A program made the translations under genes and the position numbers. From Turicibacter sp. (lineage in GTDB: Bacteria; Bacillota_I; Bacilli_A; MOL361; Turicibacteraceae), in NCBI GenBank assembly GCA_009780245.1, contig WRAJ01000007.1, forward strand, positions 1 to 64,000: a stretch of 64,000 bases of DNA, in the 5' to 3' direction. The stretch's first letter is position 1. Every line of letters begins with the position of its first letter. Below are positions 57,756 to 64,000 of this stretch, piece after piece. The notes below the pieces were generated by a model. The model worked only from the letters and a program-made list of their open reading frames with translations. It had not been told where the DNA came from and did not search any database.

Positions 57756-57796
57756 AAACCAGAAGCAATGTGTGATACAATTGCCTCTGGTTTTTA
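57756..57796 (+). terminator. Terminator of eno
   Basis: aaaccagaagcaa pairs with ttgcctctggttt (one G-T pair), followed by ttaat. Confidence 0.8.
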
Positions 57797-57800
57797 ATAT

Positions 57801-57825
57801 GCGCCCGTGGCTCAACCGGATAGAG
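57801..57825 (+). pseudogene. Truncated tRNA-Arg (5' part only)
   Basis: 25 bases identical to the first 25 of the intact tRNA-Arg at 57980, together with about nine upstream bases. After this the sequence diverges and the anticodon, T arm and CCA are missing. The next 150 bases hold several small inverted repeats and no gene. Confidence 0.85.
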
Positions 57826-57979
57826 GCAACGAGTTCGAGCCTTTGGCTCGATTACGATTGCCTACTGCAACAAGAACTTCGCGAGCTTGCGAGTGATTAG
57901 TTCTGAACTGCGAGCATCTAGATGCTCTCTCGTTGATTAAAAGGGTGTAATGAAAAACTAGAACAACTTATTTTAATAT

Positions 57980-58056
57980 GCGCCCGTGGCTCAACCGGAT
58001 AGAGCATCTGACTTCGGATCAGAGGGTTATGGGTTCGAATCCTATCGGGCGCGCCA
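57980..58056 (+). tRNA. tRNA-Arg (anticodon TCG)
   Basis: 77 bases with a complete cloverleaf: acceptor stem gcgcccg/cgggcgc, D arm, anticodon stem tctga/tcaga around loop CTTCGGA giving TCG (reads CGA), the T-loop GTTCGAATC, discriminator G and an encoded CCA. It is followed by its own terminator. Confidence 0.95.
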
Positions 58057-58186: not shown

Positions 58187-58247
58187 TTGATATGGACAGA
58201 ATATTGATGAAAATTTAATTTCAAACAATAGGTGGAGGTCTTGTGAA

Positions 58248-61200
58248 ATGAGAAATACGACAGAACAGCTTTTTGATTATTTACTGGCTGCAAAGAAAAA
58301 CTATTTACCCGTCAATCGCAGCTTAAATGAGTATTCGTCACATTGGTTCTTAGATGAAATACTATCGTCAGGGAAATCACGTCTGGTGAGTGCAACTAAC
58401 GGTGAATCGCCTCACATCGACATACATCGTTCGGTGTATGAACCTGAAAAAATTGAAACAAGCTCCACATTAGCAACTGTTTTTGAGTTGCTTAGCTACG
58501 ATCCAGAAACGGGCGAAACACTTGAAGTTGAAATCGAAGACGTAGAAGAAATCTTATCGCTAGAATCTCGGTCTCTGGATCAAAAAATTTATACGAAAGA
58601 AAAAGACACCATCATTTTAAACGATTGGCAGCAATTATTGTTAGGCGTATCGACGCCAAAAGTTAAAAAGAACGTAGCAATCCGTAATTCCAAACAGCAA
58701 AAAAACATGACCACGTTATTGATCAATGAATTGAAAGCTTGGAAAGAAGCCAAACGCAAACAAGCCTACGAAAAAGCCCAAGCGAAGAAAGCCGCGATTT
58801 TTTACGATGACGTCATCAACATCAAAGACGAAGATGGCAAATTGTATTTAGGGGTTGGTATTTTAAACGTTCCGTATGAACAAGCTGTTTATCACCCGGT
58901 ATTAACCATTGAAATGAACATTGAAGTGAACGATACAGAAGGTGTCTGCCACCTAACCTTAGCGGATGCCCCTTTAAGCTTCGACGGTGTACTCAATCAT
59001 TTTTTCGCCAACAAACCTCGTCTCATTCACGATTTACAACAAGCACTTGCCCAGCAAAACGTAACAGCATTTGACGATGAAAAAATCGCAGAAATTTTCA
59101 AGTCTTTCATTTTGCAAATTCATCCTGAAGGGCAGTACCTGGCATCGCCTCATGAAGCCGTTGATTACCAAGGGGTCGTGCCACAGCTGATGCATCGTTC
59201 TGTTTTGTTTGTGAGAAAAGACAGCGATGATCCCGTTATACAGAGGCTTAAAGCGACGCTCGATCATTATGAAAATGATCCGACCTCCTCTGATGTGTTA
59301 GGAAAAATGATCGATCCGAACTACGCTGAAAAACACACGCATGTTTTAGACACCTCAACGGATATGATGCAGGCATCACCCGTTTCAATGACCCCGTCAG
59401 AAACGAGCATTTTACAGTTAATCAAGGATCATTCTGCTGTTGCAGTGTTCGAAGACCAAGCGAATAAATACCCTGTGATGGCAAATCTTTTGACGCATTT
59501 TATTGCTAACGGCAAACGCGTGTTAGTTTTTGCTGAAGAACTAAGTGAGATTGAAGAAGTGCGCAGCTGGTTACCCACTTATTTAGCAGGGCTTCACACC
59601 GTGGTTTCGTCCAAATCAGAAACACTCCCAACGACGCTAGAGGATTTGAAGAAATGGCGCAAAGAAAAAGCGGATGACGAGCGTTTAACGTATGATTTTG
59701 CTAAAACAGCGTCTGATATTGAAAAATCGCTGGCGTTAGCAGCGGAAATAAAAGCGCAAATCTTGGACTATCGTGAGTTGAGTAGTAAGAAAGTTTTTTG
59801 GCAAGAAAAGCGATACTTTCCGTATGAGCTAGCTCAGCTTGTTTCGAAGATAGGTGGCTTTGAGCGCTTCTCAGGTGACAAGATTCCGATGGAAGCCAAG
59901 TTTGAAATGAAAAACGCAGACATAGAACGGTTGTGGGGATTAAAATCTGCCTTTACACCAGAAAACATGGCACTTCTGAATTATGAATTTATTGATTTAG
60001 ATGAATTAGTTGCGGATGCTGGCTATCAAAAATTATTAGCAACGGAAGAAAAATATTTACGATTGTGTCGCGAATATAAAAATTTAGAGAACATGTTTGG
60101 AAAAGAAATAGATTTGCGCTTTATTCAATATTTGTACGATCAACTGCCAAGAATCATGAAAGAGGTCGATGATCTGACTGACCCATACGCAAAACTGATT
60201 TTAAGAGAAGCGATGGAAAGCTTAGACGGTTACCATTCGCTTGCGGCATCAGTTGATCGCATCACGCAAGGGGTTGAGGAAATACCACAGCTTGATCGTG
60301 CACTCAAGCAACGCGACGCCTTAATTGAAAAATTAAACCACTTATTGCGCATTGAGAAAACGGAATTACTGATGATTTTAAATGGTACGCTTGACGGTCA
60401 TGATTTACATGAGTTTTATTTAAATAAAAAAGCAAGCATGACAAAAGCGTTGCAAATTGCGCATTTGATTTGGATTTTTAATGAAGGTGCGTTTGCCTTA
60501 TCAAAAGATTTCCGTGGTGTTTCTGCGGAAGGCCTCGACATTATGAGTATTTTGTACCACGCGGCAGCCCTCCATTTAAGCAAAGCAGAAGTGGAAGCTA
60601 GCTGGCAACGCGTGAGGGCTCACTTCATGAAAACCTATGTGTTACAAGTTCAAACGGAGCACATTCATCCCGTTTGCTTAGATTTGTTTGAAACGATGAA
60701 GAACGGGCAGTTTACTGAATTTAAAAAAGTGTTGGAAGAAGTGAATGAAAAGGTAACACAGCGTCATCATTTTATTACCTTTGGTAATTTCATTTCTGAA
60801 ATAAACGCGACGATGCCGATGTTGACGGCTGAATTAATGAGTAACCTAGATAACGAAATAGAAGAAACACCTGATCTCAAAGCGGAATTTGAGCAAGGAA
60901 AATTGAATTTACTACTTAGCCAATTAAAAGAATTTGAAGATGACATGTTGGAACGCAAGCTTTTGTACCTTGAGTCTCAAAAGCTAGAACTTCATCACGA
61001 ATGGCTGGAGAATAAATGCTGGCAAAATGAAACGATGGTGGACGAAGCAGTCGTTGCTGACTGTGTGAGTACCTTAACTGAATCGCTTAATCGTCAGGGA
61101 CTTAGGCGTCTGCTGTCCGTGTTCCCGGTTTCATTCGTTGCTTTAAATGACACCGCTGTCTTGCAAGAGATCAGCGCTAACCAATTTGATGTGGCATTCT

Positions 61201-61832
61201 TTGCTGATGCGTCAAGTTCAAGTGTGTTTAGGTTGCCTGAGCTGATGCATACCCACAAGGCGATTTTGTTTGGCACGGATAAAGAGGTCGAAACAAAAAA
61301 AGATTTTGTGGTGAACATTGACGCGAGCCGATTGAACGGGACGTATAGTAAAGCGTTACATAATTTCGGTGAGCAATACTTAGGCGCCTCGTTGTTTGAG
61401 TTGATTTCGCATTCGGCCGCCTGGGATTCGCGCATGAAGCTTGCGGCAAAGCCGGCTCCGCTTAAGAAACATGTGGCATCGAACGTGAAAGCGGGCGTGA
61501 AGGTGTGCGACAACGCGGTGGAAGAAGAGATTTTTGATGAACTAACACGCGCCGGATACGAACTGAAGTGTAAAGTGAAAACCGGCGAACTGGTATGGGA
61601 TTTCTTGATTGAAGCGGACAAGCAAGCACTGGTGATTAACATTATCGGTGATGAGCAAACGCACCCTGAAGTGATCAAGAAACAACTAGATCAAGAGCTT
61701 ATTTTAAAAAATCAAGGATTGAATATTTACAACCTTAATGCCCCGAATTACTATTTAAATCCGCGAGAATCGTTAAAGAAGTTGTACTTAAAATTAGAAG
61801 AGTTAAATATTTATCCACAAAATGATAGGTAG
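58248..61832 (+). CDS. Helicase/nuclease-like protein with degenerate catalytic motifs
   Basis: An intact 1194-residue frame. Its plan resembles large DUF4011/AAA_11-type SF1 helicases with a C-terminal Vsr/DUF559-like nuclease. The helicase entry region (residues 385-440) reads [20 protein letters not shown] followed by [20 protein letters not shown]. This fits the strand, Walker A and helix order, but GxGKS/T is missing. The motif II region near 980 reads [15 protein letters not shown] where DEAS is expected. The nuclease-like end (1090-1175) has [15 protein letters not shown] and WDFLIEA but lacks the usual E-x-DG core ([11 protein letters not shown]). A long helical insert fills the middle. 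It is 26 bases upstream of leuS. It is probably not an active helicase; homology is inferred by eye. Confidence 0.6.
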
Positions 61833-61858: not shown

Positions 61859-64000
61859 ATGGCATTTAATCACAAAGAGATTGAGAAAAAATGGCAAAAT
61901 TACTGGTTAGCAGAGAAAACATTTGCCACGGGAACAAAGAAAGGGGCACCAAAATTTTACGCGTTAGACATGTTCCCGTATCCGTCGGGAGCCGGACTTC
62001 ACGTGGGGCATCCAGAAGGGTACACGGCAACCGATATTTTATCGCGCATGAAGCGCATGCAAGGTTATAACGTCCTTCATCCGATGGGTTGGGACGCTTT
62101 TGGCTTGCCGGCTGAGCAGTACGCACTGGATACCGGAAACGACCCGCGCGAATTCACAGAAACGAACATCGCAACGTTCAAAAGGCAAATCCAAGAGCTC
62201 GGTTTCTCCTACGATTGGGACAAGGAAATTAATACCACCGATCCGGATTATTACAAATGGTCGCAGTGGATTTTCACGAAGATGTATGAGCGCGGGTTAG
62301 CTGAAATTAAGAACGTGGAAGTGAATTGGTGTGAAGCGTTAGGAACAACGTTGGCGAACGAGGAAGTTTTGACCGTCGATGGGAAGATGGTTTCTGAGCG
62401 CGGCGAGCACCCGGTGGTGAAAAAGCCGATGCGTCAGTGGATTTTGAAAATTACAGAATATGCCGATCGTTTGCTGGAAGATTTGGACGCGTTAGATTGG
62501 CCAGAAAGCTTAAAAGAAATGCAACGCAACTGGATCGGTCGTAGTGTCGGCGCACTGGTTAATTTTAGTGTGACCGGTCATGACGTGTCAATTGATGTGT
62601 TTACAACCCGTGCTGACACGCTATTCGGTGCGACGTACGCGGTTTTAGCCCCTGATCACGACTTGGTGTCGGTGATTACCACGCCAGAGCAGTTGGCAGC
62701 GATTGAAGCTTATGCCGAGCTGGCTCAGGCGAAAACGGATTTAGAGCGTACAGAGCTGGCGAAAGAAAAGACGGGTGTCTTTACAGGTGCTTATGCGGTG
62801 CATCCGATCACGGGTGATCAGCTGCCAATTTGGATCGCTGACTATGTGCTCTCAAGTTACGGGACGGGCGCTGTGATGGCAGTACCGGGGCACGACGAGC
62901 GTGATTATGAGTTTGCTACGAAATATGAATTACCGGTTGTGCAGGTCGTTGAAGGTGATATGAGCGAGGGGGCTTATCTCGGCGATGGTGCGCATGTGAA
63001 TTCTGACTTTTTGAATGGGATGAACAACGAAGAAGCGAAGGCGGCGATGAATGAGCGGTTGGTGGCGATTGGTAAAGGGGAAGCCACGACGACTTATAAG
63101 CTACGTGACTGGGTCTTTGCGCGTCAGCGTTACTGGGGTGAGCCATTCCCGATTGTCTTCTGGGAAGACGGGACGGTAACGGCTTTGTCTGCTGATGAGC
63201 TGCCTTTGGAGTTGCCGGTGATGGAAAATATTAAGCCGTCTGGCACGGGTGAGTCGCCGCTGGCTAATCATAAAGAATGGCTAGAAGTGGTGCGCGCGGA
63301 TGGTGTGCGTGGGCTTCGTGATACGAATACGATGCCACAATGGGCGGGGAGCTGTTGGTATTACCTGGCGTATATTTTGAAGGTAAACGGTGAGTATTTG
63401 CCGCTTGATAGCGCGGAAGGACGGGCATTGATTGAGGAGTGGCTGCCGGTTGATTTGTATATCGGCGGTGCGGAACACGCGGTGTTGCATTTGTTATACG
63501 CCAGGTTCTGGCATAAATTCCTGTATGATTTAGGGCTTGTCAATACGAAAGAACCGTTTCAGAAGTTGTTTAATCAAGGCATGATCCTCGGTGAGAATAA
63601 CGAGAAGATGTCTAAATCGAAAGGCAACGTGGTGAACCCGGACGACATTGTCAACAGTCATGGGGCGGATACGTTGCGGTTGTATGAGATGTTTATGGGA
63701 CCGCTTGAAGCGTCCGTGGCTTGGAGCGAGCAAGGGCTTGACGGGGCCCGCCGTTTCCTTGACCGGGTGTGGCGTTTGTTTGTGACGGATGAGGGTTGTG
63801 GCTTAAATGAGAAGATTGTTTCGACGAACAATGGCGCTTTAGATAAGATGTATCATCAGACGGTTAAGAAAGTTACACACGATTATGAGACGTTGGGCTT
63901 TAACACGGCGATTTCGCAGATGATGACGTTTATTAATGAGGCGTACAAGGCGGATGAGATTTTAGTGGATTATGTGCGCGGCTTTGTGCAGTTGCTCAAT
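61859..64000 (+). CDS. leuS: Leucine-tRNA ligase, N-terminal 714 residues
   Basis: The gene runs off the right edge; usual length is about 805 residues. Recognised are [19 protein letters not shown] (HIGH-type motif), the editing domain inserted near residues 225-420 with its [13 protein letters not shown] threonine-rich site, and [14 protein letters not shown] (KMSKS). It charges tRNA-Leu. Start ATG 61859 is behind AGAGGAGAG. No T-box is visible upstream; the gene seems to depend on the promoter of the preceding helicase-like gene. Confidence 0.97.

Follow-up and report, generated by a model that had tools for sequence, protein, structure and literature searches.

An SF1 helicase-nuclease that has lost its catalytic motifs is retained under purifying selection beside leuS in a sister genus of Turicibacter

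The window analyzed here, namely the whole stretch of 64,000 nucleotides at the start of contig WRAJ01000007.1 (assembly GCA_009780245.1, Turicibacter sp.), carries on its forward strand an intact gene for a protein of 1194 residues (58248-61832), which shows full-length homology to 11 working helicase-nucleases and which we term the pseudo-helicase/pseudo-nuclease gene. It begins with an ATG, preceded by the Shine-Dalgarno-like element AGGTGGAGG (58230-58238, +) that is read directly from the sequence, and its frame is uninterrupted, just as the preliminary description of this DNA had it. Upstream on the same strand lies a gene for tRNA-Arg(tcg) (57980-58056), and 26 bp 3' of the pseudo-helicase gene begins leuS (61859-64000, +), which runs off the window. 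The tRNA region additionally contains an exact 34-bp direct repeat, with copies at 57792-57825 and 57971-58004 that are 179 bp apart; it corresponds to the 5' part of tRNA-Arg(tcg) and its leader, and could be either a truncated copy of the tRNA or a scar of recombination or integration. Searches with Rfam around the pseudo-helicase gene recovered no RNA element apart from the tRNA, and promoter and terminator scans of the same surroundings returned matches no better than chance.

We compared eight genomes of the order: two from the genus to which the window belongs (henceforth the window genus), five from Turicibacter and one from a further termite-gut relative, Turicibacter sp. Nc150P1bin9 from Nasutitermes corniger (PMC7024585). 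The second species of the window genus is represented by the MAG Th196P1bin8 (WRKJ01000090) from the P1 hindgut of Termes hospes, which is labelled Defluviitaleaceae (PMC7024585). Each of the eight genomes encodes one homologue of the window protein. In all six genomes outside the window genus this is an orthologue of 1403-1474 residues, combining AAA_11, AAA_12 and a C-terminal MTES_1575 domain with intact SF1 motifs (the copy in genome G002 ends at a contig edge). Five more working relatives, of 1499-1664 residues, were recovered among 395 genomes of the class. The reference set of 11 working proteins used throughout thus comprises the six orthologues of the order and five other Bacilli sequences. 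The inactivated form described below is confined to the window genus, being present in both of its members and in none of the six other genomes of the order, and no further inactivated members outside the genus were found in 296-395 genomes of the class, in the order, or among plasmids, phages and viral contigs.

Alignment of the two inactivated proteins with the 11 working ones using hhalign gave a probability of 100 and an E-value of 2.8e-64 over 1168 columns, and their likeness is hence not due to chance. In the tree the inactivated pair, whose stem measures 2.8 changes per site, clusters with the orthologues from its own order and away from the five other Bacilli sequences (100/100). The gene represents the single-copy SF1 helicase-nuclease that the order has inherited vertically, a distant relative of Hhe, PDC-S37 and ProA. 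The two inactivated proteins display 35% identity over 1185 codons, the figure for LeuRS being 81%. The order's six working proteins agree without exception at 525 positions, of which 74 have been replaced by an identical new residue in both inactivated proteins; these shared replacements, together with lesions common to both species, indicate that the loss predates their split. No second copy with helicase motifs was found in either genome of the window genus. The other AAA_11/AAA_12 matches in both genomes fall in frames of ~803 and 1156-1165 residues, which from their size are probably RecD2 and AddA respectively.

The motor lesions can be followed from the N-terminus of the RecA1 domain onward. 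Its first half (residues 383-449; 59394-59594, +) keeps a strand-helix-strand-helix run, both in the alignment and in an AlphaFold2 model (pLDDT ~72-77 for residues 381-440), in agreement with the strand-helix run earlier noted after the expected Walker A position. At the Walker A site itself (residues 400-409; 59445-59474, +), all 11 working homologues have V(Q/K)GPPGTGK(S/T)H, and the inactivated pair now has VFE-DQANKY and VFESDQHVKF, the lysine alone being left. The motif [AG]xxxxGK[ST], previously reported to be missing from the core, and even the more permissive GxxxxGK, are absent throughout both proteins. Residues 980-990 align exactly with FDVVIIDESSQ, the Walker B segment of the working homologues, at the very place where an altered stretch had been proposed in lieu of a DEAS motif; at this lost site (residues 980-989; 61185-61214, +) the DE(A/S)SQ of 11 out of 11 working forms has changed to ADASS (AD) and TDASR (TD). 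Likewise, motif III (residues 1006-1013; 61263-61286, +), aligned with VIVGDDQQ, is degenerate, with GTDKE and GNEVE for the GDDQQ-type sequence. Beyond these point lesions, the RecA2 domain (AAA_12, bearing motifs IV-VI), which is kept in 11/11 working proteins, has been almost wholly deleted in both inactivated ones, and a 24-residue linker (residues 1061-1084; 61428-61499, +) stands in place of ~200 residues. Another ~80 residues are gone from the helical middle of the pair, and the net charge of this region is -24/-26, compared with -3 to -13 for the working orthologues of the order. Pfam detects neither AAA_11 nor AAA_12 in the window protein. The protein had been described as keeping the order of a large SF1 helicase with a C-terminal Vsr-like domain: the origin implied by this description is upheld by the hhalign result, but the full order is not, since the near-complete deletion of RecA2, which had been overlooked, leaves the window protein without it. 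The lesions recur in the second species.

The C-terminal region (residues 1085-1194; 61500-61829, +) retains the fold of the MTES_1575/Vsr-type PD-(D/E)xK domain, as indicated by Pfam, the AlphaFold2 model and a structural match to Bax1. MTES_1575 is a Vsr-fold nuclease domain (PMC3710099) and is the sole Pfam match of this region (PF18741; 7.7e-9, 36 bits, for a curated cut-off of 38.2); the second species matches it at 1.2e-9 (38.6 bits). The nuclease center (61599-61652, +) had been suspected to be altered, and the alignment confirms this: D1118 and G1134-D1135 are kept, and E1131N, C1132I and D1133I convert the working ECDGD to NIIGD, the equivalent change of E-C-D in the second species being to N-I-V. 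As D1118, D1135 and E1141 survive, some residual metal binding may remain in this domain. One could accordingly imagine a protein that is still an enzyme, cutting nucleic acid with an altered PD-(D/E)xK site (D1118, D1135, E1141) in the absence of a motor. The retention of D1118, G1134-D1135 and E1141 in both inactivated forms, the well-predicted nuclease fold and the motif drift tolerated in working relatives (IDCHGD in L127/L128; IACDGD, with the first D lost, in L130 from genome G174) are consistent with such activity. However, the E of ECDG is replaced by N in both proteins, its C by I and its D by I or V, and the MTES_1575 score has fallen to 36-39 bits from the 88-104 of the working forms; hence, we consider continued catalysis to be unlikely. 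The L130 gene (3473-7972) is of separate interest in that its Walker A and B motifs are intact and its nuclease motifs are lost (LPLIV, IACDGD), making it a case of nuclease loss without motor loss.

The AlphaFold2 model, which was built with 13 sequences and is of moderate confidence (mean pLDDT 69, pTM 0.36), recovers the strand order of RecA1 (397-401, 425-429, 961-965, 980-985 and 1002-1009). Together with the hhalign alignment, this argues for a RecA-like fold, as opposed to the unrelated fold that would have told against the original reading. Long helical arms occupy most of residues 460-945 in the model, and the nuclease core follows as H1090, E1106, E1115, E1127, H1140 and E1159, in the order H-E-E-E-H-E (pLDDT ~64-86). 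Foldseek searches yielded local matches to the nuclease Bax1 (probability 0.98-0.99), to Dna2 (0.80) and to IGHMBP2, and in the viral library to an SF1 helicase (1.00) and to restriction-type nucleases (1.00); against the PDB there was no match below an E-value of 0.001. Matches to SMC, JetABC, Rad50 and axoneme proteins were put down to coiled-coil similarity in the long helical arms and set aside as artefacts. The predicted fold is therefore supportive of a helicase-nuclease origin, rather than decisive.

Given these lesions, simple decay, with a pseudogene yet to acquire stop codons, has to be weighed against retention under selection, which the preliminary description had surmised from the length of the frame. 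For decay one may cite the loss of every motor motif and a divergence that is fast in absolute terms, as is apparent from the comparison with LeuRS. Yet neither lineage has a single stop codon, as against ~55 per sequence (never fewer than 38 across 200 runs) in a neutral simulation set at the observed third-position divergence, and the only other inactivated member known is intact rather than fragmented. Using NG86 alone, because saturation defeated YN00, we obtained a dN of 0.66 and a saturated dS of 2.8, i.e. a dN/dS of ~0.23. The dN of the inactivated pair relative to that of leuS is 5.07, which lies within the range of three working Turicibacter pairs (3.75, 4.97 and 5.47), and the overall constraint is thus not measurably relaxed. 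The intact frames and the codon pattern refute decay for the two known species, and we regard it as scarcely credible: the window protein is a pseudoenzyme and not a decaying gene.

The codon pattern also bears on a second explanation, that the protein is idle and its frame has stayed open solely because a stop codon would be polar on the essential leuS gene. The gap of 15-26 bp to leuS and the absence of any terminator-like site seen on the + strand between the two genes would permit such polarity. However, polarity selects against stops and frameshifts alone, so that the three codon positions should diverge to the same extent. The differences between the inactivated pair at first, second and third positions are 0.495, 0.378 and 0.625 over 1185 codons, and divergence at second positions is lower than at third positions in 12 out of 12 segments of 100 residues. 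With second positions far below third ones, polarity is disfavored and appears very improbable. In the working pairs identity is 0.75-0.92 in and beside the motifs and 0.44-0.74 over the rest of the protein, and in the inactivated pair it is flat, at 0.27-0.41 along the chain, the short linker excepted, the peaks at the catalytic motifs having disappeared. Such a flat profile should be the expected look of an enzyme that has turned into a structural protein. As judged from the codons of one species pair with saturated synonymous sites, the inactivated form being present in two species only, amino-acid-level purifying selection has persisted over the whole length of the gene after inactivation.

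The linkage to leuS raises the further question of whether the gene might act on its neighbor. The pseudo-helicase gene precedes leuS on the same strand in both species, with gaps of 26 bp in the window species and 15 bp in the second, and leuS is the only partner gene conserved near it in the two; the flank farther upstream is unlike, featuring tRNA-Arg and eno in the window and recG in the second species. A gene encoding an AAA-ATPase_like/PDDEXK_9 protein (L021 11957-13657) lies between leuS and glmU in the second species, and is not at that place in the window genome. In Turicibacter, the working helicase-nuclease gene lies away from leuS, and leuS has a T-box leader. The Turicibacter gene (L023-L026) has a conserved neighborhood of its own, with a patatin-like gene on one side and, on the other, genes for a small membrane protein and a pyridine-nucleotide-disulphide-reductase-like protein, all named from sequence only. 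One could propose that the pseudo-helicase gene and leuS make up an operon and that the product or the translation of the former tunes leuS in place of the Turicibacter T-box. The constant order, strand and short gaps agree with this proposal, as does the distribution of the T-box before leuS (5/5 in Turicibacter, 0/2 in the window genus). However, there is no direct sign of regulation, and T-boxes are missing throughout both genomes of the window genus and not merely at leuS, a genome-wide loss that the pseudo-helicase gene does not explain. We thus hold this regulatory role to be improbable. In its own right, T-box leaders (RF00230) number 12-19 per genome in the other six genomes and 0 in both genomes of the window genus, in which T-box regulation has apparently been lost altogether or has diverged to an extreme degree.

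A role in phage defence or as an antitoxin was among those originally suggested. The protein might serve as a decoy, antitoxin or dominant-negative form that binds the substrate of a working helicase-nuclease, whether the cell's own or an invading one, or that restrains the enzyme itself. The working orthologues do match defence models in part, these being Hhe, MkoC, ProA and PDC-S37 (E 1e-57 to 1e-58), with E-values of 1e-27 to 1e-59 against the Hhe, PDC-S37 and ProA models, although even they do not reach the NCBIfam full-length cut-offs. The window protein itself has no match to the PADLOC and NCBIfam models of Hhe, PDC-S37 and ProA; its weak matches to a PADLOC 'HTH' model and to NCBIfam EcnA were judged to be chance. 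Against a decoy or antitoxin, neither genome has a second copy with helicase motifs, there are no defence genes adjacent to the locus, which is stable before leuS in both species, and no phage, plasmid or viral relatives were found. Moreover, the working orthologue occurs once in each of the six other genomes of the order, in the manner of a core gene. With no active paralogue and no defence context, these roles find no backing at the locus. We regard the defence or antitoxin reading as unsupported, its support being limited to distant family ties, and rate it as unlikely.

We therefore prefer the explanation that the window protein is an inactivated helicase-nuclease kept as a non-catalytic scaffold or sensor, in a mode analogous to that of RecC and AddB, and consider this explanation to be probable by that analogy. 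Of the roles previously listed for the protein, a structural or sensor one is our best guess, by inference. Under this proposal, the ancestor of the window genus would have lost ATP binding and hydrolysis together with the second motor domain and, very probably, its metal-dependent nuclease activity, following which the protein would have been retained as a non-catalytic one. Its large N-terminal and helical-arm domains, along with a RecA1 devoid of motor function and the nuclease-domain fold, would constitute a platform that binds a ligand, be it the end of a nucleic acid or a partner protein, and acts as a scaffold or sensor without ATP turnover or DNA cutting. The more acidic helical arms make a protein partner somewhat likelier than tracking along nucleic acid. 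The established grounds for the scaffold or sensor explanation are the homology, the lesions in both species, the fact that no catalytic form was found in either genome and the whole-length constraint. At ~76% completeness, the window genome could have a working copy that is missing from the assembly, but the second genome, which is 97% complete, has none.

The nearest known counterpart is the 1470-residue SF1 helicase-MTES_1575 protein of Turicibacter, with which the window protein shares full-length homology, domain order and single-copy status; the Turicibacter orthologue has Walker A and B, RecA2 and ECDGD and is not located at leuS, whereas the inactivated form is without these and precedes leuS. 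The Hhe, PDC-S37 and ProA proteins have the same composition as the working orthologues, i.e. an SF1 helicase with AAA_11/AAA_12 and a C-terminal Vsr-type nuclease, and the pseudoenzyme is a new variant within this known helicase-nuclease family. The usual reading of the large Hhe/PDC-S37-type helicase-nucleases is that they are motors of phage defence. In the window genus the motor has gone, and so very probably has the nuclease, yet selection is undiminished; the family would accordingly have a second, non-catalytic function that keeps 1,200 residues in place, and the matched pair of a working form in Turicibacter and an inactivated one in its sister genus makes such a function directly testable. 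With respect to the MTES_1575 REase, the window domain is a borderline match to the profile that keeps the first D and has N-I-I/V for E-C-D; annotation from this surviving nuclease profile alone would mislabel the protein as an enzyme.

A precedent for retention in non-catalytic recognition is offered by RecC and AddB, whose SF1 helicase domains lack motor motifs and recognize Chi (PMC4824097, PMC1185551); the nuclease domain of RecC is inactivated and forms a hoop for DNA (PMC4824097, PMC1185551). They share with the window protein a motorless SF1-type fold, and RecC also has an inactivated PD-(D/E)xK domain, as the window protein very probably does. However, RecC and AddB belong to the UvrD/RecB-like branch, still possess their second RecA-like domain and work in complex with RecB or AddA, and the window protein is of UPF1/IGHMBP2-like origin with RecA2 deleted. 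Neither is the window protein a member of the AddB sequence family TIGR02773, nor a replacement for AddB, given that a standard addB is present elsewhere in both genomes (G000:C11, G001:C81), which rules out the loss of AddAB in its favor. Tentatively, at somewhat less than an even chance, the window protein may be a RecC-like protein that evolved for a second time, independently, from a whole helicase-nuclease of the UPF1/Hhe-type branch and is now purely structural or sensing. With the same reserve, its hallmarks would be the deletion of one motor domain, evenly spread constraint, an unchanged overall rate and the persistence of the enzyme in sister genera. If this is true, it would join RecC/AddB as a second case in which a helicase-nuclease was turned into a scaffold.
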